Part shown: piece by piece, positions 10,473 to 44,023 of the stretch | Layout of the letters: every line of letters begins with the position of its first letter | How positions within the stretch are numbered: the stretch's first letter is position 1 | Source: Fulvivirga imtechensis AK7 | GTDB lineage: Bacteria > Bacteroidota > Bacteroidia > Cytophagales > Cyclobacteriaceae | Reading direction: 5' to 3' | Length of the DNA: 64,000 nucleotides | NCBI RefSeq assembly: GCF_000331535.1 | Contig: NZ_AMZN01000033.1 | Coordinates: 62,001 to 126,000, forward strand | Notes under the pieces: generated by a model | Database searches by the model: none | Told to the model about the DNA's origin: nothing | What the model saw: only the letters and a program-made list of their open reading frames with translations | Position numbers and translations under genes: made by a program

Positions 10473-10473
10473 C

Positions 10474-23464: not shown

Positions 23465-23713
23465 TCACGGCTCCCCCAAATGATCAATAATACACCTCAC
23501 CATCTTAGGTGTCAGCTTCTTCATGTGCTTATGGTAGCCCAATCTCTCCAGCTTTTCAATAAAGAGATCCATCCAGGCGACCATCGTTTTAATATCCACA
23601 TTGTAGAGTTTTGCCAACTCGTATTTATACAAGGTATGCCTTTCCAGGTTGAGGCACTCCTCTAATTCAATAGCTTCAATTTTTTTATATGTAGTTTTAG
23701 TTGTTGCTTCCAT
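23465..23713 (-). CDS. small HTH-like protein, last gene of the virion-like cluster
   Basis: An 82-residue helical protein. KYELAKLYNVDIKTMVAWMD looks like the helix-turn-helix of a small phage-type DNA-binding protein, followed by a basic helix (RLGYHKHMKKLTPKMVRCII). It has no signal peptide. It ends the leftward cluster, 9 bp after the 62-residue membrane protein. It could control replication or late transcription; this is inference. Confidence 0.6.
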   Translation of the reverse strand: MEATTKTTYKKIEAIELEECLNLERHTLYKYELAKLYNVDIKTMVAWMDLFIEKLERLGYHKHMKKLTPKMVRCIIDHLGEP

Positions 23714-23722
23714 CGTTCTTTT

Positions 23723-23911
23723 TCACCGGTCAATCCTGTGTAGAGGATTATCCTCCAGCAGGTATTCTTCTCCAATAAAATTACCAATGAAGCCACCGAT
23801 CAGGATGTAGGGATAGGTGTCCTCACACTTCCGCCATTTGCCTATAGCCAATCCTGCCAGGCTTCCGGCTACGGCCAATGCCGCCTTTTTGGTATTTTTC
23901 GATAGCTTCAT
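23723..23911 (-). CDS. small glycine-rich membrane protein
   Basis: A 62-residue protein with two short Gly-rich hydrophobic segments (AALAVAGSLAGLAIG and YILIGGFIGNFIGEEYLL) around a charged turn, like small membrane proteins of virions and lysis modules. It overlaps the 3' end of the L,D-transpeptidase-like gene by 89 bp in another frame; both look real because each has its own protein-like composition. Function unknown. Confidence 0.55.
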   Translation of the reverse strand: MKLSKNTKKAALAVAGSLAGLAIGKWRKCEDTYPYILIGGFIGNFIGEEYLLEDNPLHRIDR

Positions 23912-24581
23912 AGTTGTTATAAAGTTGGTAGCCCATAAATGCGGTAGAAGCTAATGCTGCTCCCCAGGCTACTGTTGATAACATTCTTTTTCTTCTGTCC
24001 CTGTAGTCGATCAGGGTAAGGGTAAAGCGGTTTCCATAAAGGCTTTTATGTACCCTGGCCAGCTTCATTAAAATGGCAAAATCGGTAGAGTTGGCTAGTA
24101 CAATACAACCTGCGGAGTAACTGTCTACCTGTACGCTCGTGCCATTGGCAGTAGCCCGATGCACATTGATACCGAACAGCCCGGTGTCAGGATAGCCGGA
24201 AGAAAACCAGTTGAACAGGCCGCCTCGATCATAGTCCCGGATTACTGTAACCGGCTTCACCTGGACAAGTGCTTCATAGCTTGCTTTGTGAAACCCGATG
24301 GCATAACTGTCCACGTATTGGTTTGCTTTAAGAAATGCTGTCCCTTTCGGGTGCATAGGGTTATCAAGCCAGTACTGCCCCGGATCTGTAGTGCAGGGGA
24401 AGTGGTGGTAAACCCACTTGCCCCCGTCATTCCGGTAGAAGACAATCAGCCAGTCGTCAAAGGCATTGCTGCGCAAGAACCTGCTCCGGAAGGCAACAAT
24501 ATTTAATTGCCACGGCCTCTGATATACCAGATAGCCCTTTGCTTTTAATATTTGCTTCGCATTATTCAGCACTGCTAACAA
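23823..24581 (-). CDS. L,D-transpeptidase-like protein with C-terminal membrane helix
   Basis: A 252-residue protein. The catalytic pattern of a YkuD-like fold is visible: FGINVHRAT with H141 and SAGCIVLAN with C159, in the H-x(n)-S-x-G-C order. The substrate would be peptidoglycan stem peptides. A hydrophobic segment near 206 to 222 (TVAWGAALASTAFMGYQLY) and a basic tail follow, so it is probably membrane-bound. Some phage endolysin-related domains share this fold. It overlaps the CHAP gene by 20 bp. Whether it cuts or links peptidoglycan is not known. Confidence 0.72.
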   Translation of the reverse strand: MLAVLNNAKQILKAKGYLVYQRPWQLNIVAFRSRFLRSNAFDDWLIVFYRNDGGKWVYHHFPCTTDPGQYWLDNPMHPKGTAFLKANQYVDSYAIGFHKASYEALVQVKPVTVIRDYDRGGLFNWFSSGYPDTGLFGINVHRATANGTSVQVDSYSAGCIVLANSTDFAILMKLARVHKSLYGNRFTLTLIDYRDRRKRMLSTVAWGAALASTAFMGYQLYNNYEAIEKYQKGGIGRSRKPGRIGYRQMAEV

Positions 24582-25200
24582 AGTCGCTTACCGCCCATAC
24601 CTGCCGTTTCAATCTCTTTTTCCGATACACACCATCACCCTCGCGGGAGCCATTGTCGTTAGTATTACCTTCTACCGTTATGACATACTCGTTTCCCCAT
24701 GTATCTACAAAGCCGATATGCGCCGGTCTGTTGAGCCGGTCATACCAGATCATGAACACATCACCTGTCTGTGGGATCTTCTTTGTTGGCTTCCCCCGCT
24801 TATAGATAATGTTTCGCTGAATGGCAAAGGAAGGAACCCACGCGCTTACCGGAGCATCCACACCGGCATGTATATAGCACCAGGAAACAAAAGCAGCGCA
24901 CCAGGGAAAAGAGGGTCCAAGCCCGGTAACAGCTAAATACTGCTCCACCATTTTGCCCCGGTTTGCTCCCCCTTCCTCCCGGACACCTACCTGGCTGCTA
25001 TAGATTTGCTTTAGCTTTGCCCGAAGCTGCTTTTCTTTTGCTTCCGGGCTAGCTTCACTTGCTACATAGCAAACCTCTTTGCCCGGTGTGCTGCTATAAT
25101 CAGCTTCATCGCAACCCTGAGCTACAGCACCCGTGCTAGAAGCACTGCTGCAAACAAGAAAGCAAAGAAGATAGAGGTAGTTAGCTTTAGCTTTTGCCAT
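24562..25200 (-). CDS. CHAP/NlpC-type peptidoglycan amidase
   Basis: A 212-residue protein with an N-terminal signal peptide (cleavage near AVAQG), a helical linker (about 50 to 75) and a CHAP-type papain-like domain. Active-site residues are visible: C101 in PWCAAFVSW, H161 in AHIGFV, and E177/N179 in ITVEGNTN. Such enzymes cleave cell-wall amide bonds and are common endolysins. Neighbours are a holin-like membrane protein and an L,D-transpeptidase-like protein, so a lysis role is likely. It overlaps the holin-like gene by 79 bp. Confidence 0.85.
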   Translation of the reverse strand: MAKAKANYLYLLCFLVCSSASSTGAVAQGCDEADYSSTPGKEVCYVASEASPEAKEKQLRAKLKQIYSSQVGVREEGGANRGKMVEQYLAVTGLGPSFPWCAAFVSWCYIHAGVDAPVSAWVPSFAIQRNIIYKRGKPTKKIPQTGDVFMIWYDRLNRPAHIGFVDTWGNEYVITVEGNTNDNGSREGDGVYRKKRLKRQVWAVSDFVSSAE

Positions 25201-25493
25201 GATTCCAAAGTTTTAAAGTCGTTAGCAAATTGATTATCCAGGTAAGCATCTGTAGTCGGCCAAATCAGCTTCATTAAGATCCTAATTACGCCATGTAGCA
25301 CGAAAAGCGCTATGACTGCAAAAAGGATGATCTGAAAAATGCCCGCGTCATAAGTGGCACTGGTAGGATCTATCCACCTGAGCAAGATGTGGCTCTTCAT
25401 CCACAGGATGATGCCCACAGCTATACTGGAAAGCTCACGCCATATCTTGACGTAGTTCCAGAGGTCTTTAATGAATGACTTAAAGTGTTTCAT
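25122..25493 (-). CDS. holin-like small membrane protein
   Basis: A 123-residue protein from the ATG at 25493 (MKHFKSFIKDLWNYVKIWRE); an in-frame start at 25523 would overlap the preceding gene and is less likely. Three hydrophobic segments lie near 22 to 40, 52 to 78 and 107 to 123, with a basic N-terminus. Size and position directly upstream of a CHAP amidase fit a holin, the pore that lets the amidase reach the cell wall. No specific holin family is recognised. Confidence 0.65.
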   Translation of the reverse strand: MKHFKSFIKDLWNYVKIWRELSSIAVGIILWMKSHILLRWIDPTSATYDAGIFQIILFAVIALFVLHGVIRILMKLIWPTTDAYLDNQFANDFKTLESWQKLKLTTSIFFAFLFAAVLLARVL

Positions 25494-25519
25494 GTTGTTA
25501 TTATTTAATTGAGTTGATA

Positions 25520-26485
25520 TCAAATGAGTGTGAGGTTCTTTTCAGGGGCATAGACGATCTGCCCCTGCGGTGTATATACCTGGACAACTCCGGATTTGCC
25601 ACCGGTGACATAACCCACCACCTTTTTAGACTTTACCACAGGGGGTAAAAATCTGCCGTCTCCTTCCTTCAATAGTGTTGGTTTCCTGGTTACAGCCAGC
25701 TTAAACAGTTCCCGGCTATAATTGGCAGGCATACCAAAGCCCGACAATGACCATACGCCATTTCTATTTACCAGCCCCATGCGGCTGAATTCTGCCCTGA
25801 TCTTCACTTTTGCTGCTTCGTTGGAAGCAAAGGCAACGCTGAGCAGAGCATTCACCAGGGTTGTTACCTTTGTGCCTCGTATCCGCGCCCCATTAAAATG
25901 GCTGCTCACTTCCCGGTAGCCTGCTACATCCTTGATTTTTGCCAGCTCATTGAGTACGGTAAAGATGTTTTGCTTTTCTGCACCCGCTTTTATCCCGTCT
26001 GCTATAGCCTTGCTATCAAGTGAGCCTTGGCTTTTGTTTTTTGCTATCAGTTGGGTGAAGGTGCTTTCCGAAACCATAGCAGGGAGACCGGCGGCTAACA
26101 GTGCTTTGACCGTGCCACTGCCAAAAATACCGTCCGGCTCCCCGTTGGGTTTGATGGAAGTTGCTTTTATAGCTTCGGCAGCTTCACCACCCATAGCAAG
26201 CAGGGCAGATTGCAGCATTTTCACAAGTGTCCCTTTTGCCCCGGTGGTCAAAGGAAAGTTGCTTTTGTTTTGCTCCACTACTTGCTTCACCTGGTTGATG
26301 GCGGGAAGGTGGTTAATGATCACATCACCGCGCCCGGTAGCTGCTTTATTCCTGATAAAGGTATATGCCAGGTATCCACCGCCAAGCAATGCTCCTATGC
26401 CTAAACCGTAAACGATGGCCTTTCTCTGCTTCTTCCTTTTCTCAGAGGGCTGCCGGTTGCGTTTCCTGTTTTGAGTTTTTTTCAT
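25520..26485 (-). CDS. membrane-anchored peptidoglycan-binding protein
   Basis: A 321-residue protein. A strongly basic N-terminus (MKKTQNRKRNRQPSEKRKKQ) precedes one transmembrane helix (about 24 to 44). Residues 79 to 133 resemble a peptidoglycan-binding repeat: KGTLVKMLQSALLAMGG then EPDGIFGSGTVKALLAAGL, the DG-x-F/Y-G-x-x-T motif. The C-terminal 180 residues are unrecognised. A virion or lysis component that holds the particle or enzymes at the cell wall is plausible. Confidence 0.72.
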   Translation of the reverse strand: MKKTQNRKRNRQPSEKRKKQRKAIVYGLGIGALLGGGYLAYTFIRNKAATGRGDVIINHLPAINQVKQVVEQNKSNFPLTTGAKGTLVKMLQSALLAMGGEAAEAIKATSIKPNGEPDGIFGSGTVKALLAAGLPAMVSESTFTQLIAKNKSQGSLDSKAIADGIKAGAEKQNIFTVLNELAKIKDVAGYREVSSHFNGARIRGTKVTTLVNALLSVAFASNEAAKVKIRAEFSRMGLVNRNGVWSLSGFGMPANYSRELFKLAVTRKPTLLKEGDGRFLPPVVKSKKVVGYVTGGKSGVVQVYTPQGQIVYAPEKNLTLI

Positions 26486-26490
26486 TGTTG

Positions 26491-26928
26491 TTAAGGTTTT
26501 GAGTTAATGATGGCAAGGGCTTTGGCAAATTCTTTGGTGTCCAGTTCAGACTGCATATCAGCGACAAGCTCTGTGTTATAGAGGTTCCTGTAAGCCTTTT
26601 GTACCTTGCGCATAAAGCTGCTGTCCGGTATGCTCTCCAATACATTGAAAACCAATTCTTCATTGGTTCCCCACCCAAAGTAATTGTCGTTCTCAAAAGC
26701 CATTTTTAGCTGTATGGCATCACTGGCAGGATCTCCGGGATTAAGCGCATTTTTTTGCTGCTTTCTTTGCTTCATATTCCGAACAACCTTACGGATAAGG
26801 AGAAAACTGCCCAAGCCAATAGCACCTGCCAATAGCCCATTCAATACCTTATCGGTGAACTCGCTGTTCTGATCCTCATTACCATCCTGACCTCTTGCCA
26901 TATTTACCGCTTTGAGTAAGGGGAGCAT
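26491..26928 (-). CDS. membrane protein with annexin-like repeat
   Basis: A 145-residue protein. A transmembrane helix lies near 30 to 47, followed by a basic patch (KVVRNMKQRKQQKN). Residues 72 to 140 resemble one annexin-type repeat: AIQLKMAFEN, GWGTNEELVFNVLES, a middle helix VQKAYRNLYNTELVADMQSE and FAKALAII. In annexins the GxGT(D/N)E loop binds calcium and phospholipid. Here the repeat is single and bacterial, so calcium binding is only a suggestion. It lies in the virion-like cluster. An alternative start is M10. Confidence 0.62.
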   Translation of the reverse strand: MLPLLKAVNMARGQDGNEDQNSEFTDKVLNGLLAGAIGLGSFLLIRKVVRNMKQRKQQKNALNPGDPASDAIQLKMAFENDNYFGWGTNEELVFNVLESIPDSSFMRKVQKAYRNLYNTELVADMQSELDTKEFAKALAIINSKP

Positions 26929-26930
26929 TA

Positions 26931-27116
26931 TTATTTTACTTTAAGCTTCATCTTTACCATGTTTCGTATGAAGGCATCGGTCTTGAAGATTTTTTCCATT
27001 TTGATGATGCCTTCGGCTTTGAAGTTTTTGATCATGGTTTCAAAAGCTCCTTTGACCTGCCTGGCCTCCTGCTCGTCATTTGCAGTCAGGGTGATGTTGA
27101 GTTTAAATTCCTTCAT
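26931..27116 (-). CDS. small basic protein of the virion-like cluster
   Basis: A 61-residue soluble protein (MKEFKLNITLTANDEQEARQ). A ferredoxin-like alternation of strand, helix and strand is suggested, with a basic end KMKLKVK. It overlaps the coiled-coil gene by 14 bp and starts the 3' half of the cluster. I do not recognise it. Confidence 0.55.
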   Translation of the reverse strand: MKEFKLNITLTANDEQEARQVKGAFETMIKNFKAEGIIKMEKIFKTDAFIRNMVKMKLKVK

Positions 27117-27957
27117 GGTTAATTTCCTTGTTTTCGTTTTCTTCGTTCAGTTCTGATTGATTGGCATTTGCTTTTCTCACCTTTCCCAAATGATTCAGGT
27201 AGTAAGTCATCTTTTGAATGGTGGTATCATCAGCTTTCAGGGCTTCGCTGATCTGCCCTAATAGCAGCACTATTTCCTGTAACTGGTCTTCTTCAAAAAG
27301 GCTCTGGAAGTATTCTGCAAATTCTATTAGCTCCTGCTGTTCTTCTGTCAGGCTTTGCGAGGATTCCGGCAAAGCCGCCATTTGGCCGCCCAGCTCGCCC
27401 AAAGTTTCAGCAAGTCCTTGAAGCTGCTTCGGGTATCGTTTGGCAAGTCCGCTCACTGCTCCGGGTATCAGGGCTTTGCCTAACTCAATGATCCCAAGCT
27501 TGCGCACCAGTTCAGCGATTTCTGAATCCTTTTCATCTACCTGGTCTTCGGCTCTTTTCAACTTACTTTCCAGCTTCTCTATTTGCCTGGTTTGCTGAGC
27601 GCTCTCCTTTTTCAGAGCTTCAAAGTCACGTTTCATCAGCTCCTCCTGCAGGAGTTGGGAAACATGGTTGTTTACCCCGCTCAGGGCTTCTTCCTGGTTC
27701 CTGCTTAACTCGCTGAGCTTCTCCCTGAGCCGTTCGTTCTCCAACTCCGCCCTTTGCAGCGCCAGCTTATCGGAGATGTTGTCAGTCTGGTGGTTATTAT
27801 CATAGCTCCGTGATACATGCATGGGTGTAGCTTCATTGAGCTTATACCGGAGGTACTGGCTTTCATTCTCCAAACCCAATAGCTCCATTTCCTCATACTG
27901 CTCATCGTTAAGCCTTACCGAACCGGGCTTTCTTTCTCTGTAAGTGTCCATAATCAT
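27103..27957 (-). CDS. coiled-coil protein with ribbon-helix-helix-like N-terminus
   Basis: A 284-residue protein. Residues about 8 to 45 (RKPGSVRLNDEQYEEMELLG) resemble the strand and two helices of a ribbon-helix-helix domain. Residues 65 to 150 form a long charged coiled coil (LQRAELENERLREKLSELSR). A helical region rich in Ala/Leu/Gly follows (150 to 200), then an acidic end. Phage scaffolding or packaging-related proteins often have this composition. No enzyme motif is seen. The translational start may be M3. Confidence 0.6.
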   Translation of the reverse strand: MIMDTYRERKPGSVRLNDEQYEEMELLGLENESQYLRYKLNEATPMHVSRSYDNNHQTDNISDKLALQRAELENERLREKLSELSRNQEEALSGVNNHVSQLLQEELMKRDFEALKKESAQQTRQIEKLESKLKRAEDQVDEKDSEIAELVRKLGIIELGKALIPGAVSGLAKRYPKQLQGLAETLGELGGQMAALPESSQSLTEEQQELIEFAEYFQSLFEEDQLQEIVLLLGQISEALKADDTTIQKMTYYLNHLGKVRKANANQSELNEENENKEINHEGI

Positions 27958-28265
27958 TCTTCCAGTGTTACTACTATCAATTTTACCTGGCTAATTGCCT
28001 GGCTTGTATTTTCGATCACTATCCAATCTCCATGTTCGTGCGCGTTTTCCTGAAGCAAAGGATTATCCGCATCAAACTCTCCGTAATCGCTGCTTATCTG
28101 AATCCCTTCCCCTGTTTCCACCACAAACCATATCTGGTTGTAGGCGGGGATCTCTTTCCTTTCTCCGGGTGACACATTAATATCCCGGTAGTCCAGCCGG
28201 TATTTGTCAAAGCCTCTTTCCTTTGCCCGTTGTGGTGCATAGCTGATTACAAACTGTTCAGTCAT
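27954..28265 (-). CDS. small beta-rich structural-type protein 1
   Basis: A 103-residue protein with alternating hydrophobic strands and no helix-rich part. It contains IWFVVETGEGIQISSDYGEF and ends QVKLIVVTLEE. The start and the upstream stop overlap by 4 bp. It belongs to a row of five such proteins at 27954-30067 and could be a spike, penton or minor capsid protein. No family recognised. Confidence 0.58.
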   Translation of the reverse strand: MTEQFVISYAPQRAKERGFDKYRLDYRDINVSPGERKEIPAYNQIWFVVETGEGIQISSDYGEFDADNPLLQENAHEHGDWIVIENTSQAISQVKLIVVTLEE

Positions 28266-28522
28266 AGCTTTTCAGGTTCGTATTCTGCCAATAGCCATAC
28301 CCTTATTTTGTAAGGTGTTTCCTCATTATCCAAATCCTTCACTGTTCCCCGGATCACACCGGTATCGTTGGCCACGTCTACCGGCATGAACTGCGGGGTT
28401 TCCAGGTGCTCGCCCACTGCTTTTTGCAGCTCGGAAAATTCACCGGACTTTATGCCTTCTGTAGGATTGCAGGCGTAAAAAAGGCTTCTGCCGTTGTATA
28501 GCTTTACTTCACACGTACTCAT
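28262..28522 (-). CDS. small beta-rich structural-type protein 2
   Basis: An 86-residue protein that begins MSTCEVKLYNGRSLFYACNP. A central helix (about 27 to 40) is followed by strands, and the C-terminus YKIRVWLLAEYEPEKL repeats the (Y/L)-x-I-x-V-x-L pattern seen in its neighbours. It overlaps both flanking genes by 4 bp. Function unknown; virion component by context. Confidence 0.55.
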   Translation of the reverse strand: MSTCEVKLYNGRSLFYACNPTEGIKSGEFSELQKAVGEHLETPQFMPVDVANDTGVIRGTVKDLDNEETPYKIRVWLLAEYEPEKL

Positions 28523-29031
28523 TCTTCTATCTCTACTGTTATGTGCATTTGTCCTGGTCCTTCCTCACTCACCCATATGTCATAGTCTTCTGTAAACCCG
28601 GTGTCAGGATCTGTAATGGGGACTGTCGCCCGCTTTCGAAATTCCGCCCCTCCCCATACAAAAAAGAAGTTCATGCTGACAGGCTGGGCGTAATACAGCC
28701 ACTGTCCTTTGTCAAGGGTATGGCGGAAGCTGAAAAAAGACCTGTTGAATGCTCCTGATCTAAGCCTGGTAATGAAGGCGCTGTTAAACAGGTTGGGCGC
28801 ATTTCCCGGACCGAAATACCAGACCGGATCTCCCTGCACTGCCGGCACCATTGTATCCATTGTTGTCATTACCCCGGTTATTCTCATGATACCTGGTGAA
28901 AGCTTTACCCGGAAGGTTTTTACCTGTCCTGACTTGTCTATAATGACTTCAACAGGTAAAAGCTTTCTTCTGATAAGGTACTTTTCATCTTCTCCGTTTA
29001 ACCCTTCACTCCTCCGGATCTCCCGCATCAT
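28519..29031 (-). CDS. beta-rich structural-type protein 3 (capsid candidate)
   Basis: A 170-residue protein. It is rich in beta strands with many aromatics (FNRSFFSFRHTLDKGQWLYY) and a Gly/Pro-rich loop region. C-terminal pattern: FTEDYDIWVSEE. Length and composition fit a single-jelly-roll capsid or decoration protein. Compared by eye with the 132-residue neighbour, both share a KGI/PGI strand, a central SR/TR-L-x-S-G segment and the Y-D-I-(H/W)-V ending. It overlaps both neighbours by 4 bp. The assignment is inferred. Confidence 0.6.
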   Translation of the reverse strand: MMREIRRSEGLNGEDEKYLIRRKLLPVEVIIDKSGQVKTFRVKLSPGIMRITGVMTTMDTMVPAVQGDPVWYFGPGNAPNLFNSAFITRLRSGAFNRSFFSFRHTLDKGQWLYYAQPVSMNFFFVWGGAEFRKRATVPITDPDTGFTEDYDIWVSEEGPGQMHITVEIEE

Positions 29032-29426
29032 GCCTTCTCATCTGTTATAAGTAATACATGAATATCATAGCCATTTTCAAAGGGCGCCCTTGGGTGATCA
29101 TTGTCCTGAAACCTGAGCTTGAAAGACAGGTCTCCGGGCTGTACGGCTTTAAATGGAAAGAAGCGTTTAAAAGGACTCACATTACCTGTTGAAAGGAGCG
29201 CCCGGCTTACAAAACCTTCGGAAATGATCTCTTCACCTCCGATCTCTATCTTTTGTGTGCCTCTTAGAAACAACTTTTCGTAATAGCTGCTCGAAAGCTG
29301 GATGCCTTTTACCAGTACTGTCCGTTTGGACAGCTCCCAATCCTTTGTGATAAGCTTACCCGCTTCTTCCACCCGAAAGGAGAAGAAGGGGTATCTCTCG
29401 ACCGTTTTTTGGTTATCCATTTCCAA
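29028..29426 (-). CDS. beta-rich structural-type protein 4
   Basis: A 132-residue protein, mostly strands (RTVLVKGIQLSSSYYEKLFL), with a segment SRALLSTGNVSPFKRFFPFK and the ending ENGYDIHVLLI. The ending resembles those of the neighbouring small proteins, which suggests a shared fold or ancestral duplication. It starts 5 bp after the 211-residue gene and overlaps the 170-residue gene by 4 bp. Start at M1 or M3. Confidence 0.58.
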   Translation of the reverse strand: MEMDNQKTVERYPFFSFRVEEAGKLITKDWELSKRTVLVKGIQLSSSYYEKLFLRGTQKIEIGGEEIISEGFVSRALLSTGNVSPFKRFFPFKAVQPGDLSFKLRFQDNDHPRAPFENGYDIHVLLITDEKA

Positions 29427-29431
29427 AATGA

Positions 29432-30067
29432 TTAAGCGGGTACGGTTGAGGTTCCGGCAAGCATCACCTTGATGAGGGTCTTTTCGGGCGCATCATCTCC
29501 TAATTCGATCATAAACTCGAATTCTTCATCGTCCCTGATGAACCTTGGGTTTTCCAGGTAGTAGGTACCCAGGTTGACGGTCAGGTCATTGTCTGTAACA
29601 AAGTCTGTCAGTGACCTTTCGTCCACAATGATCTTCTTGTTTGCCATGAAAGTGAAGTCACCGTTTTGAAGTCCGGCCACCTTTTTGATGGAATCAAAAT
29701 CAGCGGTAAGTTTCAGCTTCTTCCAGGCAAAGTCACTTTGTGGCAGATCCCCTGCAAACTCTGTAGCCAGGAGGATGATCCTGTTACAAAGGAACAGCCT
29801 GTCTTTGGGTAGCTTCGCCTGCGTAACATTGGTAATACCCCTTTCTTTCGCGTCCTGGGTTTCGAACATGTGGATCGTGGCCTTGTCCCCGCCATACTTG
29901 ATACTGTAGTATGCAGTATCGGCCAATTGTAGCCTCCCGTCTTTGATCTTTTCAGCTACACGTACCATTTCAGGGTCGTGTTTTTTACCTTCTTTGGCCA
30001 ACTGAACGTGCGCATTAACAATTTCTAAAAATTGCTCTCTGGATGATTTTCTCATTGCTCCTCTCAT
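29432..30067 (-). CDS. major structural protein candidate (211 residues)
   Basis: A 211-residue protein. A basic helical N-terminus (about 1 to 50, REQFLEIVNAHVQLAKEGKK) is followed by strands throughout (about 60 to 205), including FLCNRIILLATEF and FVTDNDLTVNLGTYYLENPR, and the ending TLIKVMLAGT. It is the largest of the beta-rich row and follows two membrane-type genes, which suits a major capsid protein. It is small for a double-jelly-roll protein and lacks the length of HK97-type capsids. Assignment by context only. Confidence 0.58.
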   Translation of the reverse strand: MRGAMRKSSREQFLEIVNAHVQLAKEGKKHDPEMVRVAEKIKDGRLQLADTAYYSIKYGGDKATIHMFETQDAKERGITNVTQAKLPKDRLFLCNRIILLATEFAGDLPQSDFAWKKLKLTADFDSIKKVAGLQNGDFTFMANKKIIVDERSLTDFVTDNDLTVNLGTYYLENPRFIRDDEEFEFMIELGDDAPEKTLIKVMLAGTSTVPA

Positions 30068-30114
30068 AGTTGTTGTTATTGGATGATTAAGTTTTTATGT
30101 ATGTTGTTATTGTT

Positions 30115-30133
30115 AGGGTTTTGACCGAACCCT
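30115..30133 (-). promoter_or_regulatory. short hairpin after the 192-residue gene
   Basis: Immediately after the stop at 30134 the sequence AGGGTT (30115-30120) pairs with AACCCT (30128-30133) around a 7-nt loop. There is no U-tract. It sits between the membrane-type gene and the presumed major structural gene and may affect expression balance. Confidence 0.3.
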
Positions 30134-30712
30134 CTATGCCGTGGCCGCCAGTGAAATGGCATCGAGGCCATTGATTTCCGCACTGTCCACACCATCAAAG
30201 CCCTCGATAAGTCCATTGGTATAGCTGCTTTCTTCGATAAGCTGGTCCGCATTTCCTTCTTCCAACTGGCGAATGATCTCATCTACTTCGGAGGTATCAA
30301 AGTCGCCCATCTCACCTCCCGCCAGGAGAATGCCGTCCTCGGCACCACTCAATTCCATATTTCTGGCCATTTCGGGTGAGACTTTGTGTAGCATGATCTT
30401 TCTGCCGAGCATTTTCAAGGTGTTGAACACTCTGTCTTTAGCTTCATTCACTTCATCTTTGAAGCCGTCAACGCTATCCCCACGTTTTTTTAAATTCGGG
30501 GCTATGCTGGTCATCATGGCTACTCCGCCTGTCATCGCCCAGGGCTTTTCATAATATGCACCGGCCAGAGTTGCGGCCAGTCCGGCAAGGAGGCTGGGCC
30601 AGGTGCCTAGTGCGCTTCCCACTACGACACCGCCCAAGCCACTGGCGATATTAAGGCCGGATGCTGTTAATACTTTTTTGGTATCCTTTTTTTTGGTTTT
30701 TGACTTTTCCAT
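30134..30712 (-). CDS. membrane-associated protein with Gly/Ala-rich anchor
   Basis: A 192-residue protein. A basic start (MEKSKTKKKDTKKVLTASG) is followed by a Gly/Ala/Val-rich hydrophobic region (about 17 to 75: LGGVVVGSALGTWPSLLAGL) that looks like membrane hairpins. The rest is acidic, with GDFDTSEVDEIIRQLEEGNA. Such proteins line the inner membrane of membrane-containing phages. It precedes the presumed structural gene. No family recognised. Confidence 0.6.
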   Translation of the reverse strand: MEKSKTKKKDTKKVLTASGLNIASGLGGVVVGSALGTWPSLLAGLAATLAGAYYEKPWAMTGGVAMMTSIAPNLKKRGDSVDGFKDEVNEAKDRVFNTLKMLGRKIMLHKVSPEMARNMELSGAEDGILLAGGEMGDFDTSEVDEIIRQLEEGNADQLIEESSYTNGLIEGFDGVDSAEINGLDAISLAATA

Positions 30713-30755
30713 TGTATTGATGTTTACTTGATCTTACTTACTGTTTACATTACTG

Positions 30756-32198
30756 TCAAAGCAGTACTTTTGGGGCTACCACCTTTTTTTTGACAGTCTT
30801 TTTCTTTCTGCTTTTGAACTTGCCGTTTTTACCTCTTGGTAATCCGGCCAATGCTTTTGCAGCCGGCTTTTTCTTTTTCGATTTCACCACCGCATAGGCT
30901 ACTCCACCACCGGCAAGCAGGATACCTGTGCCTATCAGGAGTATCTTGTTTTTTGATGCCCAGCTTTCTTTTTTTGCCACCTCTTTTGTCGTGCTTTGAC
31001 TATCGAGCATCTTTTGTGATGTTGCCGGTTTCGGGGCGGGTACAGGCGCTGGTTTTGGGGCCGGTTTTGGAGCCGGTGTTACTGTTCGCTCTGCTATCGT
31101 CTTGACAGTAGCAGGAAGGGCAGGCTTTGGCGTTGATAACGCTACGATCTTTGGGGGTGCCGGTAGCTGGTATGGTGTAACAGGACTGGAAGGCTTGGTA
31201 CTCACCAGGTTTTTAGCGGTACTCACCAGGCTCTTGCCGGTGTTCACTACATTGGTTACATCTTCTTTGGTCTTTTTCGCCTTATCAAAAACTCCGGTAA
31301 TCTTGTTGAGCACAGTGGCAACTGCCGCCACTGCACTACTCGCTGCGGCAAGGGCTGATCCTGTAGCCACTTCTCCAAGGCCTTCAACGCTCATTACTCC
31401 CTGCAAGAGGGCTTCTACTTCCTCATTGTCAGCTTCCGCAATAAATCTTTCAAATTCATCCACATATTCCCCTTCATCGGCCAGTCCCAAACCTGCCAAC
31501 TGAGAACCTGACGTAGGCACGGCCTTGTCACTATTCCCTTTACCGGAAAGTATGGTTTTACGAAGGTTTTCCTTCTTTCCCCCGGCAGTCTCGTACACTT
31601 TTTCAGCGCTGGAAATAGCTTTTTTAAGCTTCGAGAACTCACCCATGTTTACACCGCGTTTCCGGGCTTCGGCATCGGACAGGTAGCCAAACCGTAGCTT
31701 CTCAGCCACTTTCATAAAATTGACTTTCATGGCAAGCAAAAACCCATTTCGTAGCAATATGGTAGCGGGGTTCAAATAGCGATTGGTGAATTCTACTACT
31801 GGCTTTACTACCTTTTTTACAGTGAACTTTGCGGCATTCTTGACACCGGTACCTACCTTCTTGAGCACAGGATTTGCCTTTTTGGTCATGAACTTGGAGG
31901 CATTTTTCAGGCCTTTGCCTATTTTTTTCAGGAAACCAAGCTCTCCAAGACCGTCTATGGCATAGATGTTCTCATCTTCATCGGCATACATGATCACGTT
32001 GCCATTCTCATCGAGGATCTCATAAGCGATAACGGGGTCTTTTACATAGCCTAAACCGGAAAAGTCCAGTTCCTGGTAGTCATCATCGAGTTCCTCAAAG
32101 TCGATTTCTTCGCTGTCGTAGCCGTCCAGGTCAATGTCCTGAATGTCTACGTTGTCAAGCCCTGATATTGGTAATCCGTCTAATCTGTGTAATTCCAT
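30756..32198 (-). CDS. large membrane-associated protein with basic and Pro/Ala-rich regions
   Basis: A 480-residue protein. The acidic N-terminus (Asp/Glu-rich, about 10 to 70) is followed by amphipathic basic repeats (FLKKIGKGLKNASKFMTKK and VLKKVGTGVKNAAKFTVKK) that look membrane-seeking, an Ala-rich region (about 280 to 300), a Pro/Ala/Lys-rich linker (about 350 to 400) and a C-terminal transmembrane helix near 425 to 442 followed by a Lys-rich tail. The internal basic repeat is striking. It resembles membrane-interacting proteins of lipid-containing phages. Function is inferred from context. Confidence 0.65.
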   Translation of the reverse strand: MELHRLDGLPISGLDNVDIQDIDLDGYDSEEIDFEELDDDYQELDFSGLGYVKDPVIAYEILDENGNVIMYADEDENIYAIDGLGELGFLKKIGKGLKNASKFMTKKANPVLKKVGTGVKNAAKFTVKKVVKPVVEFTNRYLNPATILLRNGFLLAMKVNFMKVAEKLRFGYLSDAEARKRGVNMGEFSKLKKAISSAEKVYETAGGKKENLRKTILSGKGNSDKAVPTSGSQLAGLGLADEGEYVDEFERFIAEADNEEVEALLQGVMSVEGLGEVATGSALAAASSAVAAVATVLNKITGVFDKAKKTKEDVTNVVNTGKSLVSTAKNLVSTKPSSPVTPYQLPAPPKIVALSTPKPALPATVKTIAERTVTPAPKPAPKPAPVPAPKPATSQKMLDSQSTTKEVAKKESWASKNKILLIGTGILLAGGGVAYAVVKSKKKKPAAKALAGLPRGKNGKFKSRKKKTVKKKVVAPKVLL

Positions 32199-32209
32199 AT
32201 TCCTGTTGA

Positions 32210-33208
32210 TTAAGTAAGCATTTTGATTAACTGATAAGTCCCGATCCCCACGGCTCCGGCAATGAGTATCTTCTTCAAAACCCCGCCTTTTTTTACCGTT
32301 GTGTTAGGCCGTGACTGAATAAGCGTTGGGCTGGTCGTGTTTACCTGCGGTGTGTCCTCCGGCAGTATGCTCCGGCTGGTTGTCATAGTCTGGGGAGCGG
32401 AAGACGGCAACTGCTGCATTTCCTTTAGCGGGCTTGGGGTTTTAGGCACTACCTGCTTTGGTTGGTGGGGCTTATTTTGGCCTACCAGGATATTGATGTT
32501 TACTGCCGGGCTGATGGGTCTTATGCGGTATGCGGGGCGGTTCCTTTCTTTTGCTTTTTGGTGTTTCAGCTTTGCACCGATTACCTCCCTGAGCGCCAAT
32601 GAATCTACCCCACTGAAACCTGACGGAATGCCTTCTATTGTTCCGACAAGTACCCCGTCATTCATGGTGAAGTCCTTCTTTTCCAGGTAGGGCACTTCAT
32701 AGTCGAACCAATCGGTTACACAATCCATTGTGATATATTTTCCGTTACCTGTGGGCACAATAGGATAAATGTGCTGGTAACGAGGCAACAGCCAGGGATT
32801 GTTCTTGGCATATTTGGTGATCCTGACCTTATGACCAATATTCAAATTGGTCAGGATACTACAGATCATGACAGTCATGCAGTCGCAATCGCCAAGACGG
32901 TCTTTCCACATTCTTGACGGTCGTCTGACCTGCTCAACTCCCTTTTTATCAAGTTGATACTGAAAATGGTCGTAAACAAATTGCCAGACATTGCAGCAGG
33001 TCTCCCGAAGGGTTGAGGCTTTCAGGGTAGGGGCTACTTTTTCAGTGTCCTTTAAGGTAGTTGCCACCACCTCTTTAATGAGGTTGATCGTGTGGTGAAG
33101 CTTCGCCTTGCCTTCCGGCTGAACAACGGTGTCCACGCCACGGCTTTTAGGAAAAAGCCGGTCGTACTTGTAACCGGGTTTGATCTTTCTTTTTTTGAGG
33201 GCTTGCAT
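32210..33208 (-). CDS. transglutaminase-like (papain-fold) protein with C-terminal anchor
   Basis: A 332-residue protein. Residues about 65 to 170 match the transglutaminase-like core: GDCDCMTVMICSIL with C108 (C110 is also possible), H146 in RYQHIYPI and D162 in ITMDCVTDW, the Cys-His-Asp order. Such enzymes cleave or transfer amide bonds. Residues 240 to 300 are a Pro/Gln/Thr linker, and a hydrophobic helix (ILIAGAVGIGTYQLIKML) ends the protein. It could process capsid or membrane proteins or the host wall. It overlaps the upstream gene at position 33208. Confidence 0.72.
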   Translation of the reverse strand: MQALKKRKIKPGYKYDRLFPKSRGVDTVVQPEGKAKLHHTINLIKEVVATTLKDTEKVAPTLKASTLRETCCNVWQFVYDHFQYQLDKKGVEQVRRPSRMWKDRLGDCDCMTVMICSILTNLNIGHKVRITKYAKNNPWLLPRYQHIYPIVPTGNGKYITMDCVTDWFDYEVPYLEKKDFTMNDGVLVGTIEGIPSGFSGVDSLALREVIGAKLKHQKAKERNRPAYRIRPISPAVNINILVGQNKPHQPKQVVPKTPSPLKEMQQLPSSAPQTMTTSRSILPEDTPQVNTTSPTLIQSRPNTTVKKGGVLKKILIAGAVGIGTYQLIKMLT

Positions 33209-33666
33209 CAGAAAGTAAGGGTTGTGGTTTGCGTATCGGTATAGGGGATGCCGTTAACGGTGGTGGTCACCACCACATCAACATCAATGCTTGATTTGTC
33301 CTTGTTTCGGATGGCATCGACAACCGATAGGCCAAGTGTTTGCGTCAATGCAAGCCACCCGAAATTCATGTCGATTTCAAAAGTCGTTTGGCCGAACTGT
33401 GGAACGGTGATCTTTTCGTCTTCGAGTTGCGAAGTGCCCAGGCTTTTGCCACCGTAACTAATGGTCACCAGCGGTTTTTGCAAGGTGATGGTAAGCTTAT
33501 TGGGGTTTTTGATGGTCGCAAAGATTTTGACCGCCAGACCTGACAGGCTTACCTTATGCACTTTGGCGTTGACTTCCGTTTGTACTGTTTGTGATGCCCG
33601 GTTGAGCTTGAGCAGATAGCTAAATGCAAAAATTCCCGCACCCGCACCTATGATCCATTTCAGCAT
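33208..33666 (-). CDS. membrane-anchored LEA/WHy-like protein
   Basis: A 152-residue protein from the ATG at 33666 (MLKWIIGAGAGIFAFSYLLK); a longer frame to 33702 would place a charged tail before the membrane helix. After one transmembrane helix, the soluble part (about 35 to 150) has a WHy/LEA2-like pattern: VKIFATIKNPNKLTITLQKP, then VPQFGQTTFEID and TTTVNGIPYTDT. The NPN motif after a strand is typical. Its role in the element is unknown. It is the first gene of the leftward virion-like cluster. Confidence 0.65.
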   Translation of the reverse strand: MLKWIIGAGAGIFAFSYLLKLNRASQTVQTEVNAKVHKVSLSGLAVKIFATIKNPNKLTITLQKPLVTISYGGKSLGTSQLEDEKITVPQFGQTTFEIDMNFGWLALTQTLGLSVVDAIRNKDKSSIDVDVVVTTTVNGIPYTDTQTTTLTF

Positions 33667-33686
33667 AATACCTGGTGTTTTTTCTC

Positions 33687-33717
33687 CAAATATTAGCCTC
33701 AAAAAGAGGGGATCAAA
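33687..33717 (-). promoter_or_regulatory. possible promoter of the virion-like cluster
   Basis: On the minus strand a TTTG (33717-33714) lies 18 nt upstream of TAATATTTG (33695-33687), an imperfect version of the Bacteroidota -33 and -7 boxes. The leader to the ATG at 33666 would be about 15 nt. The match is imperfect, so support is weak. Confidence 0.3.
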
Positions 33718-33871: not shown

Positions 33872-34039
33872 ATGGAATGTTTAAGGTTCAAAAGCAAGGC
33901 AGAATTAGCAAGGGACTTCGGGATAAGCAGAGAAACTTTGAGATTAAAGTTAAAGCAGATTGAAGGGCTGGATACCGGTAGGAGACAGTTACTTTATCCG
34001 TGGGAGTTGATGGTGATTTATAGGGAGTTTGGTGGATAA
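33872..34039 (+). CDS. very small helix-turn-helix protein (55 residues)
   Basis: A 55-codon frame from ATG at 33872 to TAA at 34037-34039. KAELARDFGISRETLRLKLK is a clear helix-turn-helix, with A-G-S spacing typical of small phage and plasmid regulators. It is divergent from the virion-like cluster and 23 bp upstream of the 205-residue membrane protein. It may switch the virion promoter. The short length lowers certainty slightly. Confidence 0.55.
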   Translation: MECLRFKSKAELARDFGISRETLRLKLKQIEGLDTGRRQLLYPWELMVIYREFGG

Positions 34040-34062: not shown

Positions 34063-34680
34063 ATGAAGTGGATAAAAAGCCTTCTTTCAAAACTTAGAAA
34101 AAAATGTTTTGAACACTTGGTTGAACTGGAAGTTTCCAAAAGGGTCAAAGAGGCTTTAAAGAAATGTACTGATAAACAACCAATTTATACTGATTTAATT
34201 AATGAAAGGAATCACATTGAAAACTTACTGAATAGCCGATTCAATTTTTTTATCGTTTTGTTTGGATCAATGGTAGCAGCAATCCTTGTAGTAAAAAACA
34301 TCCAACAGCTTCGGTTGGTATTGCTTTCAGGTGCAATAATTCTAGTCTCACTTACTCTTGTTATAATGAGAGCACAGAAAAAGCTCTCTATTCATTTGAA
34401 AAGAATTCGAGATGAGCATAAATGTTCCGCTGAAGCAATTGCACATGGTGAAGCCAATACCAAGGGTTGCTATCTTACCAGACGTAGTGTAAACTGGATA
34501 ATAGGTTATCTTCTACCTCTTATGATAGCTATAACTACTTTTCTAACTATGATTACATCATTTTGTCGCCCAGAAATGTTGAAGTTTTTTTGGGACCAGG
34601 ACACTTCTGAAACATCTACAAAGAATGTCAATTATCATGAAAACCATTTTCACGAAATAAAATGTGACGTAACTAATTAA
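34063..34680 (+). CDS. membrane protein of the cargo region
   Basis: A 205-residue protein. A charged helical N-terminus (about 1 to 55) precedes two hydrophobic helices near 60 to 77 and 83 to 100. A basic linker, then a third helix near 143 to 165 (WIIGYLLPLMIAITTFLTMI) and a polar tail follow. Hydrophobic pairs with helical linkers occur in small effector membrane proteins of defence loci, but I cannot assign a family. The DNA is more AT-rich than the virion-like cluster. It is flanked by divergent small genes. Confidence 0.6.
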   Translation: MKWIKSLLSKLRKKCFEHLVELEVSKRVKEALKKCTDKQPIYTDLINERNHIENLLNSRFNFFIVLFGSMVAAILVVKNIQQLRLVLLSGAIILVSLTLVIMRAQKKLSIHLKRIRDEHKCSAEAIAHGEANTKGCYLTRRSVNWIIGYLLPLMIAITTFLTMITSFCRPEMLKFFWDQDTSETSTKNVNYHENHFHEIKCDVTN

Positions 34681-36250: not shown

Positions 36251-36430
36251 TTTAAGTGAAATCAGTAAAAAAATTTATTATTGCTGTTTTTGGCGTACAC
36301 CAGATTTATAATTGCAAGGTGGCACCATTCTCATTCCCTATTCCGCCTAAAATGGGAAATGGAGTTTGTTTATAACATGTATTTCGATGTAACTTATTAC
36401 ATTCCTTTTAACGCTAAATTGTTCCCGTAT

Positions 36431-39637: not shown

Positions 39638-39895
39638 TTATCCCTGATACTTGTCTGTAGGGTTTACCCGTTCTATTTCCGTGCCTCCCGGCTTGTTCTC
39701 ATAAATAATTGCTTTCGACCAATCATCTTTTAAGGCACCCACAAGCAACATCTTTCTTAGCCTTTTGATACCCAAGGCCATATCCGGCCTGCTTTTTCTA
39801 CTGCGCTTGTCCCTGGAATAGAACACTCTTTTAGTACCATCCTTTTTTACCACCCAACACCGGGTAAGCGAAGTGTTCTTGAGATTTTCAGGCAT
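39638..39895 (-). CDS. small basic protein of the replication operon
   Basis: An 85-residue basic protein (about 20 Lys/Arg). It begins MPENLKNTSLTRCWVVKKDG and has a KRVFYSRDKRSRKSRPD patch that could bind nucleic acid. It overlaps the replication-type gene by 8 bp. No family recognised. Confidence 0.55.
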   Translation of the reverse strand: MPENLKNTSLTRCWVVKKDGTKRVFYSRDKRSRKSRPDMALGIKRLRKMLLVGALKDDWSKAIIYENKPGGTEIERVNPTDKYQG

Positions 39896-41207
39896 GTGGT
39901 TTCATTTTTAAGTTCAGACTTTTGCGAAAAGCAATTTCATAAGCCACCCGTATACCAGCATCATTGATTTTATCCAGCCTTCTCTTATGGGCTACGAACA
40001 ATTGATAGCGGCTCATTTGACCATAAACCCCTTTGCCCTGGTTATGAAGATCCAGTTCCTTTTTCATCTTCTGCAGGGCCAGCTCATTCCTGACCTGCAG
40101 CTTTAAAGTTTCCTGCCTCTCATACCATATCCGGTTTTTGTCGAATCCATTTTTGTGGTTATCGGGTGAAAAGTAAAAATCGGCAGAGGGTATCCACCTG
40201 TCCGGTGACCGATCCAGCCATTTCCTAACAATATTCACCCGCTCTAAAAGCGTTTCCTGGTATACTTGCCATTCCTCCTGAGTCTTTTGCGAATTAAACC
40301 TACCATACACCGAGACGTAAATCATGTTCAGGATCGAAGATTCCTCATACGGCTTGTAATCCGTGTCCGGGTATAATACTGCTTTTGCGTATGCCCAGAA
40401 CTCCTGCACCAGTGCAAGTAAAAAAATGCGCGCCGCCCCCCCGGCCTGCTGCTCTTGTTTCCTCTCTGGTAAGCACGGCTGCGGCATTTTTTCTGGTTCT
40501 CTAGCAGGAGCTGCTTCATTTTTTTTCAAAAAACAGGCATTCAAGGCGGTGGCTACAGCTTCTTTCGCTTGCTTTTCATCCAGGTCATGGGCATTTTTTC
40601 TGGTGCTCTTGTCATATGCTCCTGTTTCGGCTTCGCCTTTAGGCAAGCCACACATGTCCGTTAGGACACCTTTGTTATCCACATTGCTATTAATATTGTC
40701 TTGCTCCTGTAGCACATGTGCTAAAGGCTGAATTATTTTCCGATCCTTTGTAATCAAAGGGTAAACAGGGGTCCTTTGAAGGCCGCCTTCGGGCAAATAA
40801 GTGATCATATAAGCCCCTTTCCACATGATTTCTGGATTTATCCACAAGTCCAATCCTTCGCCACCGTGATGGTTTTCTGCGGTAATCAGGTTAGCTTTCA
40901 TCAACCGTTCCTTGTGGTTGTATATAGTGCGTGTAGTGCAGTCCTTGCAGCTTGCCAGGCTTGATACATACGTTCTGAAAGCTGGCATTTCGGAAAGGCT
41001 ATAAGGTGCAACACTTGTTAAGTCGTTCAACTGCTTCATGTAAAGTCGAACAATGAGTTCCGCGGTACCCCGGTGGCTTGCATTGATCTTTTCTTTTAAG
41101 TCCGGGTGCTGCTTGTTATAGCTGTCAACGTACTCTTTAAGGGCTTTGAATACTACACCGAAATCGAAACTTAGGTGAAGCGGAGTTGTTGGGGTAACTG
41201 CTGTCAT
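39888..41207 (-). CDS. winged-helix replication-initiation-type protein
   Basis: A 439-residue protein. N-terminal residues about 55 to 130 read like a winged helix (AFRTYVSSLASCKDCTTRTI, then HKERLMKANLITAE), as in replication or primase-type proteins of Bacteroidota mobile elements. The middle is a low-complexity Gln/Glu/Ala/Lys linker, and the C-terminus is helical and basic (about 290 to 430). No helicase or HUH motif is visible. It is probably the element's replication or excision-replication factor. It overlaps both neighbours and is 370 bp from the excisionase-like genes. Confidence 0.65.
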   Translation of the reverse strand: MTAVTPTTPLHLSFDFGVVFKALKEYVDSYNKQHPDLKEKINASHRGTAELIVRLYMKQLNDLTSVAPYSLSEMPAFRTYVSSLASCKDCTTRTIYNHKERLMKANLITAENHHGGEGLDLWINPEIMWKGAYMITYLPEGGLQRTPVYPLITKDRKIIQPLAHVLQEQDNINSNVDNKGVLTDMCGLPKGEAETGAYDKSTRKNAHDLDEKQAKEAVATALNACFLKKNEAAPAREPEKMPQPCLPERKQEQQAGGAARIFLLALVQEFWAYAKAVLYPDTDYKPYEESSILNMIYVSVYGRFNSQKTQEEWQVYQETLLERVNIVRKWLDRSPDRWIPSADFYFSPDNHKNGFDKNRIWYERQETLKLQVRNELALQKMKKELDLHNQGKGVYGQMSRYQLFVAHKRRLDKINDAGIRVAYEIAFRKSLNLKMKPHA

Positions 41208-41917: not shown

Positions 41918-42205
41918 TTAAGATACATTCTGTGCTGATTCATCCGTATATCTATCTAATTCACTGCTGTCTATTTGCCACGAAGATCCCGGCCTGTCCT
42001 GCCTCGCCTTTAAAAGGCCATAGTTGCAATGTTGAACCACGGTACTATAAGCCATACCGGTTAATTCTGAAAATTTTCTTGGAGTCAGAAATTTCTCTTT
42101 TCGTTGATTCTCTTTAAGTATTTTTCGTAGGCTTTCCTCTAAGCTATACTGTAGTTCCAGTAGATCCTTTTTGGTTACTAGTGTTGCTAATTCATCTGCT
42201 CTCAT
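41918..42205 (-). CDS. helix-turn-helix protein, excisionase-like
   Basis: A 95-residue protein. A charged N-terminal helix (LLELQYSLEESLRKILKENQ) precedes an HTH_17-type domain: FLTPRKFSELTGMAYSTVVQ, then GLLKARQDRPGSSWQIDSSE. The tail SELDRYTDE fits the last helix of excisionases. It lies between the integrase and the other HTH gene; two long direct repeats sit just upstream of its start. Confidence 0.72.
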   Translation of the reverse strand: MRADELATLVTKKDLLELQYSLEESLRKILKENQRKEKFLTPRKFSELTGMAYSTVVQHCNYGLLKARQDRPGSSWQIDSSELDRYTDESAQNVS

Positions 42206-43975: not shown

Positions 43976-44023
43976 GCTTAGGAGTTTAGGAAACTTCTAT
44001 TCTATCCATTGAACTACGGGGCC
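43976..44023 (-). tRNA. tRNA-Arg(CCU), 5' half only, interrupted by the element
   Basis: Minus strand from 44023: acceptor strand GGCCCCG, then TA, D-arm GTTCAATGGATAGAAT, anticodon arm GAAGT-TTCCTAA-ACTCC with anticodon CCU at 43990-43988. The D-arm and anticodon loop are convincing. Beyond the anticodon stem no variable loop, T-arm or 3' acceptor strand (expected CGGGGCC) follows; the sequence continues into the element towards the integrase. One anticodon stem pair is mismatched. The gene is therefore split and probably not functional here. Confidence 0.7.

Follow-up and report, generated by a model that had tools for sequence, protein, structure and literature searches.

A gene block of Fulvivirga imtechensis AK7 as the probable virion and lysis operon of a tailless prophage distantly related to Salisaeta icosahedral phage 1

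In a 64,000-nucleotide stretch of Fulvivirga imtechensis AK7 DNA (the window, which covers bases 62001-126000 of the 129.8-kb contig NZ_AMZN01000033.1, here C33), positions 23465-33702 are filled by 18 open reading frames (ORFs), all of which run leftward and all of which are open throughout. We consider it likely that these ORFs make up the virion and lysis operon of a phage with double-stranded DNA (dsDNA) that is temperate, icosahedral, and without a tail. The phage would be integrated in a Fulvivirga-like chromosome and distantly related to Salisaeta icosahedral phage 1 (SSIP-1). Direct support for this reading comes from the gene order and its conservation, the predicted folds of two proteins, homology with the SSIP-1 protein gp34, a linked ATPase gene, and a split tRNA gene.

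Kinship of the block with SSIP-1

Ten proteins, namely nine from the block and the ATPase of the element that contains it, were searched against 50,697 phage records. For the 332-residue transglutaminase-like protein, the only phage returned at E ≤ 1 was SSIP-1, through gp34 (tblastn, 3e-4; two records of the same phage), which is annotated as structural in the GenBank record. Further, gp34 was scored at 57.5 bits (3.7e-18) by the profile of the transglutaminase-like family, as against 29.6 bits by Pfam Transglut_core; the 332-residue protein itself matched the Pfam family DUF553 at 3e-4. A DC[DE] motif is present in all 76 rows of this family that were tested, six of the 82 rows having been removed before the count for want of 'DC', and a longer pattern with a downstream His is present in 62 of the 76. 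Among the other block proteins, the 211-residue protein returned only Pseudomonas phage PaBG (E = 8), and the 480-, 164-, 132-, 321-, 284-, and 145-residue proteins returned no phage record at the limits used (E ≤ 0.1 for the 284-residue protein).

The ATPase, for its part, found SSIP-1 gp40 as its best named phage match (7e-10), which ranks second of 31 matching records (25 of them listed) after an uncultured huge phage. The preliminary description of this DNA had noted that no packaging ATPase was present; an ATPase gene does lie in the element, on C33 about 39 kb left of the block, and it had seemed absent because the edge of the window cuts the element, which extends beyond that edge. A P-loop pattern scan of the window itself gave no plausible ATPase candidate in the element. 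Relatives of the ATPase occur in 12 of the 13 related genomes that carry a relative of the 211-residue gene, and in seven of the 45 that do not (Fisher P = 6e-7, ignoring kinship between genomes); at E < 1e-10 these counts are 11 of 13 and two of 45. Eight of the 12 genomes have the two genes on a single contig, at distances of 9-46 kb. In Fulvivirga marina, the ATPase, the giant methyltransferase gene beside it, and a 220-residue neighbor follow in the same order.

The 211-residue protein, which we regard as the candidate major capsid protein, was modeled with AlphaFold2 from 14 sequences (predicted local distance difference test score, pLDDT, 85.8; predicted template modeling score, pTM, 0.83). 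The model places two helices at the N terminus, and we read its strands as a predicted jelly-roll. Its Foldseek comparison with the PDB gave three matches below 1e-3, comprising two PBCV-1 capsid proteins and, in second place, the FLiP penton; viral coat or capsid proteins account for 40 of its first 50 rows. Against BFVD, 32 matches fell below 1e-3; several are named capsid proteins of giant or single-stranded DNA (ssDNA) viruses, several are unnamed, and some are not capsid proteins. The first of these neighbors is A0A141HS23, and the second is I1ZBH9, a protein of 211 residues that, like A0A141HS23, is unnamed and which we guess from its equal length to be SSIP-1 gp46 (no paper was found for the accession). 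The 132-residue protein, modeled from 52 sequences (pLDDT 92.3, pTM 0.83), is predicted to consist mostly of strands with short helices, and its two best BFVD neighbors, the likewise unnamed A0A141HS22 and A0A141HS21 (TM 0.64-0.65), directly precede in accession the first neighbor of the 211-residue model. Each model contains one β domain. The search for jelly-roll folds that the preliminary description had proposed was thus answered for the two of the 18 proteins that were modeled, one being a predicted jelly-roll and the other all-β. A PDB sequence search with the 211- and 132-residue profiles and the transglutaminase-like protein gave nothing relevant, the 211-residue profile finding no chain at E ≤ 1.

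Profile comparison also connects the candidate capsid family with SSIP-1. Among 32 pairings of eight window families with four SSIP-1 families (hhalign), the best was that of the 211-residue family with the gp45/gp46 family (P = 6.9e-4; probability 26.6%; 136 columns, colinear), and the other 31 all exceeded P = 0.05. Relatives of SSIP-1 gp46 were detected in 15 of 395 genomes across the phylum, 14 of which belong to one family. In all ten short (3.5-kb) gp46-relative loci that were fetched, a single gene matches both gp45 and gp46 and adjoins a gp47 relative; most of these loci also carry relatives of gp43, gp44, and gp47 alongside, and we read them as prophages of the SSIP-1 type in which each locus has a single capsid gene. 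No second homolog of the 211-residue protein was seen in the window block; at other loci only the best homolog was recorded.

Several observations weigh against this kinship or against the virion reading as a whole. The hhalign probability of the capsid pairing is low; the gp44, gp47, and gp48 pairings expected by position gave none at P < 0.05 against the eight window families; and the capsid profile compared with single SSIP-1 proteins reached only P = 0.69 for gp46 and P = 0.013 for gp45. With a larger capsid profile, gp45 came third of 57 SSIP-1 proteins (P = 0.033), and hhalign of the eight window families against all 57 single proteins gave no convincing pair. The Foldseek TM-scores of the 211-residue model are low (about 0.13-0.44), and the comparison therefore speaks to fold class only; the other ten of its first 50 PDB rows are nonviral, namely MiXBM (five), BcsB (three), Ena3A, and Cbln1. 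The gp40 match is in part that of the generic AAA_25 domain, which Pfam finds in gp40 at 5e-11; only part of the ATPase matches in some relatives; and in four of the 12 genomes (draft assemblies) the ATPase and the 211-residue gene are on separate contigs. No FtsK/HerA-type ATPase was found in the Pfam and PHROG scans, which reached no further left than C33:43.9 kb. A strict hydrophobicity test was passed by only four of the 18 block proteins, one of them probably through a signal peptide, so that the many small membrane proteins of the preliminary description were overstated. Finally, the data contain no sign that the element is active. We place the element, from its sequence, as a distant relative of SSIP-1 and do not file it as a member.

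Content and conservation of the block

The block proteins were scanned with PHROG (all 18, at E ≤ 1) and with Pfam (nine of 18). The 212-residue protein carries a CHAP domain (Pfam, 7e-7) and matches endolysins (PHROG, 2e-22), while the 252-residue protein matches phrog_3000, a family of unknown function, at 5e-29 and the endolysin family phrog_33083 at 1e-7, its best Pfam match being only 0.16. These two lytic enzymes, as well as a 133-residue holin-like protein with two hydrophobic helices, bear out what had been read from the translations. The peptidoglycan-binding protein reported alongside them is less certain, since the similarity of the 321-residue protein lies under the cut-off (Pfam, 0.086; PHROG, 0.009). 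None of the block lysis proteins matched SSIP-1 in the profile scan.

Terminase, portal, and HK97-type capsid families had no match among the 18 block proteins in these scans. The 29 further proteins of the element matched 36 PHROG families at ≤1e-4 (25 listed) and 24 at ≤1e-7 (all listed); 'central tail fiber J' (1.7e-10) is among those listed, as are families of DNA methyltransferases, DarB-like antirestriction proteins, helicases, an ATPase, and a DNA primase. Families of terminases, portals, and capsids do not occur in the list (complete at E ≤ 1e-7). The large terminase that marks Caudoviricetes was not found over the same ranges, and the profile phrog_2, which we take to be the large terminase, matches the genome once, on contig C4 and not in the element; it matches 11 of 14 control genomes.

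The block might nevertheless be a module of a tailed phage, with capsid, portal, and terminase genes that escape recognition. We regard this as highly improbable, although there are matches that would fit it: weak ones to a tape measure protein (284-residue protein; PHROG, 7e-4), to a baseplate hub (480-residue protein; PHROG, 1.5e-4), and, through the CHAP domain, to a baseplate/tail lysozyme (212-residue protein; 3.5e-5), in addition to the tail fiber match of one further element protein. Moreover, the 252-residue protein matches 29 phage records, many of them from Bacteroides or crAss-like phages, and a protein of Bacillus phage AR9, which we take to be a tailed jumbo phage, is a BFVD neighbor of both the 211- and 132-residue models. 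These points are set against the position of the only phrog_2 match on another contig and against two independent proteins, the 332-residue protein and the ATPase, for which a tailless phage is the only or the best named phage match. The preliminary description had stated that terminase, portal, HK97-type capsid, and tail genes were all lacking; in the 18 proteins none was recognized, and the tape measure and baseplate matches qualify the part of the statement that concerns tails. Its tailless reading is supported.

The G+C content of the block (∼0.45-0.48) exceeds that of its immediate flanks (∼0.33-0.40) and is equaled further left, in genes at about 2-14 kb. Counting the genome itself, relatives of the 211-residue protein occur in 13 of 58 related genomes and in five of 395 genomes across the phylum. 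In a collection of 84,980 species, 270 stretches matched the search patterns and 184 proved to be relatives, of which the best 80 were kept. Two IMG/VR viral contigs also encode a relative (alignment scan; two of 129 stretches); a scan of viral contigs with the single 211-residue sequence gave five pattern matches and no relatives. The resulting 82 loci, several of which are truncated by contig ends and some of which belong to genomes that also supplied the profiles (e.g., L033 and L017), show eight core families on one strand and colinear in every case, with all eight detected in 71 (occupancies in Table 1). The lysis genes and some small proteins were detected in fewer loci than the core families, and the distant relatives L026-L031 have fewer block families in common. 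In many distant relatives, the 480-residue and transglutaminase-like proteins are fused in one ORF. The conservation of the block exceeds chance, because 13 of 58 genomes have relatives of the 211-residue protein and the core is colinear in 82 of 82 loci. The block is also under purifying selection: the pooled ratio of nonsynonymous to synonymous substitution rates (dN/dS) against the Fulvivirga marina copy is 0.106 over 16 genes (15 block genes and one gene further right, with three small block genes left out), where three of the 16 single ratios are undefined and dS is near saturation.

Integration, state, and proposed working of the element

The element interrupts a tRNA-Arg(CCT) gene. This gene is intact beside hflX in all four relatives examined, whereas the window retains just the first 41 of the gene's 73 nucleotides, adjoining the integrase gene (coordinates by counting), and the 3' part, with the same 14-bp core, lies at C33:30695-30740 (core coordinates likewise counted). 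The integrase thus adjoins an attachment site inside a tRNA gene, as in an integrated prophage; together with an excisionase-like gene, this upholds the temperate character that had been suggested for the block. A complete variant tRNA-Arg(CCT) at C33:43919-43991, the left end of the phage, may stand in for the split host gene. The conserved gene order stops near C33:44.35 kb, and we therefore read the sequence as a phage of ∼62 kb (C33 ∼44-106 kb) with a second island of ∼13 kb beside it at the same site, the alternative being a single 75-kb element. The island between the tRNA-Arg copies, at C33:32222-41151 left of the window, presumably resembles a cysteine-desulfurase, PAPS-reductase, DUF4007 defense set by our reading. 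F. marina carries the element on contig C10 and an intact tRNA-Arg gene beside hflX on contig C12, which means that the integration site differs; no left attachment site was found in the pieces of that genome compared.

A decayed remnant of the same phage lineage, which would share this origin and have lost the making of particles, is unlikely but deserves weight, since silent defects are possible in the window copy, the tRNA gene has been split by the integration, and additional copies of tRNA-Arg are present to the left of the element. Against decay stand the 18 of 18 open frames, the low dN/dS of the 15 block genes tested, and the ATPase, giant methyltransferase, and integrase genes, all of which are full-length open frames. 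A domesticated particle, such as a gene-transfer agent or another device of the host, with phage capsid and lysis functions retained and mobility lost, would likewise fit both the purifying selection seen in the block when two species are compared and the lack of observed activity. Domesticated devices usually occupy one conserved locus. Here, presence is sporadic (the 13 of 58 and five of 395 genomes above), several loci occur in one assembly (e.g., on four scaffolds of Aquimarina algiphila M91), the site differs in F. marina, and integrase and excisionase-like genes are nearby, all of which makes such a device very unlikely.

For an integrated phage related to SSIP-1, we infer particles, a lipid membrane, assembly, packaging, excision, and activity from the gene content, and we propose the following working. 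The integrase would recombine the 14-bp core that lies within the anticodon arm of tRNA-Arg(CCT), and induction would lead to expression of the leftward operon. The 211-residue jelly-roll protein, the 132-residue protein, and neighboring small proteins would form a shell over a membrane carrying the 480-, 332-, 192-, 164-, and 145-residue proteins as anchored components. Of these, the 332-residue transglutaminase-like enzyme would be part of the virion and act on proteins or peptidoglycan by cross-linking or trimming, and the 192-residue protein is perhaps membrane-associated by reading. The ATPase would drive DNA packaging or replication; its neighbor, the giant methyltransferase/helicase, a region of which matches DarB-like antirestriction families, would guard the DNA against restriction. 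The CHAP enzyme, the 252-residue protein, and the holin would open the cell.

Among the remaining genes (Table 1), the 82-residue protein probably acts as a small regulator and not in the virion; in several relatives, one ORF is matched both by its profile and by the profile of the 55-residue regulator. The 439-residue protein may have a role in replication or regulation. A RadC protein is also encoded left of the window on C33. In many distant relatives (L070-L114), giant RadC/methyltransferase/helicase genes lie downstream of the block, the cluster being present in 33 of 82 loci. Within the span of the element, window positions 312-14817 encode large proteins with SprB repeats, fn3, D-Ala-D-Ala carboxypeptidase-like, and secretion-tail domains, possibly cargo or surface proteins; F. 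marina, too, has genes of similar size to the left of the block. Between the block and the integrase are a protein kinase-like gene (36281-37936) and a gene for an 8xMP-like membrane protein (34063-34680), which have no relatives in 15 loci compared and are possibly accessory or defense genes.

Table 1. Features of the block and its element (window positions unless marked C33; loci, occupancy among the 82 compared)
Feature	Position	Strand	Loci (of 82)	Evidence
484-residue ATPase	C33:45015-46469 (left of window)			AAA_24, ABC, AAA_25 domain matches
1872-residue C5-methyltransferase/helicase	C33:48120-53738 (left of window)			Pfam/PHROG scans
82-residue protein (g82), last ORF of block	23465..23713	-		ORF; profile comparison
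62-residue Gly-rich protein	23723..23911	-	53	
252-residue protein, endolysin-related phage families	23823..24581	-		phrog_3000; phrog_33083
212-residue CHAP-domain endolysin	24562..25200	-		PHROG and Pfam matches
133-residue holin-like protein	25122..25523	-		hydrophobicity test
321-residue protein, weak peptidoglycan-binding similarity	25520..26485	-	73	
145-residue conserved protein, one hydrophobic helix	26491..26928	-	76	
61-residue conserved protein	26931..27116	-	39	
284-residue protein, coiled-coil by reading	27103..27957	-		ORF; PHROG scan
103-residue conserved protein, presumed virion protein	27954..28265	-	80	
86-residue protein	28262..28522	-	38	
170-residue protein, presumed virion protein	28519..29031	-	42	
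132-residue second candidate capsid protein, predicted all-β	29028..29426	-	82	AlphaFold2
211-residue candidate major capsid protein, predicted jelly-roll	29432..30067	-	82	AlphaFold2, Foldseek, weak SSIP-1 gp45/gp46-family profile match
192-residue Gly/Ala-rich protein adjoining capsid gene	30134..30712	-	81	
480-residue protein, C-terminal hydrophobic helix	30756..32198	-	81	hydrophobicity test
332-residue transglutaminase-like protein, SSIP-1 gp34 homolog	32210..33208	-	80	Pfam, tblastn, family profile
164-residue LEA_2-domain (LEA-like) protein	33208..33702	-	75	Pfam 4e-8
55-residue divergent small regulator, head of block	33872..34039	+	39	
439-residue element protein	39888..41207	-	35	common to L017 and L019; match (2e-57) to a family present in 35 loci
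95-residue helix-turn-helix excisionase-like protein	41918..42205	-		Pfam/PHROG scans
Tyrosine recombinase (integrase)	42408..43799	-		Pfam 1e-13, PHROG 8e-33
Right attachment site, first 41 nucleotides of tRNA-Arg(CCT), ending in 14-bp core AAGTTTCCTAAACT	43983..44023	-		sequence comparison

Comparison with known phage groups

SSIP-1 has so far been almost without known relatives, and we found no description of this lineage as prophages in the open-licence literature searched. A reservoir of such prophages in Fulvivirga, Aquimarina, Marivirga, and many uncultured Bacteroidota would offer culturable hosts; the 184 related stretches (80 fetched) can serve evolutionary analysis and supply candidates for capsid and packaging genes; and the tailless branch of the temperate virosphere would widen. 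Programs that recognize prophages by terminases, portals, and tails can be expected to overlook such elements. Whether these prophages make up a lineage of family or order rank seems to us an evenly balanced question. It would comprise large (∼60 kb, measured in one case) dsDNA phages that are temperate and tailless, contain a membrane, and are widely distributed among Bacteroidota as prophages, with (i) a 211-residue jelly-roll capsid protein and a 132-residue second shell protein, (ii) a KaiC/RecA-like rather than FtsK/HerA packaging ATPase, (iii) a transglutaminase-like virion enzyme, and (iv) a giant antirestriction methyltransferase, and SSIP-1 would be its distant, isolated cousin.

The preliminary description had named the FLiP group as an example of phages with this mixture of genes. 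FLiP and PhiCjT23 (Finnlakeviridae and kin) share with the element the Bacteroidota hosts and the existence of temperate forms, as well as, on the genes read here, a presumed tailless and lipid-containing particle, and the FLiP penton is a fold neighbor of the 211-residue model. However, their genomes are ssDNA of 7.6-9 kb with a double jelly-roll capsid protein (PMC6260650, PMC9719478), contigs of the group reach 17 kb (PMC5894146), and the related Flavobacterium prophages are about 6.0-8.4 kb, carry a Rep gene, and integrate at dif-type sites (PMC9719478). The element, in contrast, is about 62-75 kb, uses a tRNA site and a tyrosine recombinase, and has no rolling-circle Rep among the PHROG and Pfam matches listed for it; its two modeled candidate capsid proteins are single-domain, neither being a double jelly-roll. 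The ten protein searches returned no FLiP-group phage, as against SSIP-1 twice. Given its size, the size of its candidate capsid proteins, and the lack of matches, we rejected membership of the FLiP group, and a Finnlakeviridae-type ssDNA prophage is extremely improbable as an explanation of the block. The marine Vibrio tailless prophages, reported to be common in marine bacteria, resemble the element in being tailless prophages and differ in having genomes of <16 kb (PMC11630473).

The sphaerolipovirus-type phages and viruses (P23-77, SH1, and HCIV-1) have small single-barrel capsid proteins, a membrane, dsDNA, and no tail, a general plan that the element may share. The shells of both SSIP-1 and the sphaerolipovirus type are built from small jelly-roll proteins (PMC6356626, PMC5332951), and the packaging ATPases of the latter have been modeled on FtsK, HerA, and STIV2 (PMC5332951), whereas the ATPase here matches AAA_24, ABC, and AAA_25 rather than FtsK/HerA. 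No P23-77 chain is among the best 50 PDB rows for the 211-residue model.

From SSIP-1 itself the element differs in that (i) a pair of related genes, gp45 and gp46, stands side by side in SSIP-1, whereas one homolog was found here; (ii) homologs of gp43, gp44, gp47, and gp48 are not detectable here, the giant methyltransferase included in the comparison with gp43; and (iii) the SSIP-1 genome is 43.8 kb, compared with about 62-75 kb. By annotation, gp43 enters the virion. The SSIP-1 particle has an internal membrane and is icosahedral with T = 49 (PMC6260650). The likeness, in turn, comprises a transglutaminase-like structural protein (gp34), the gp40 ATPase, a capsid-sized protein with a weak, colinear profile match, an integrase that is annotated in the SSIP-1 record as well, and a giant methyltransferase gene near the ATPase and capsid genes.

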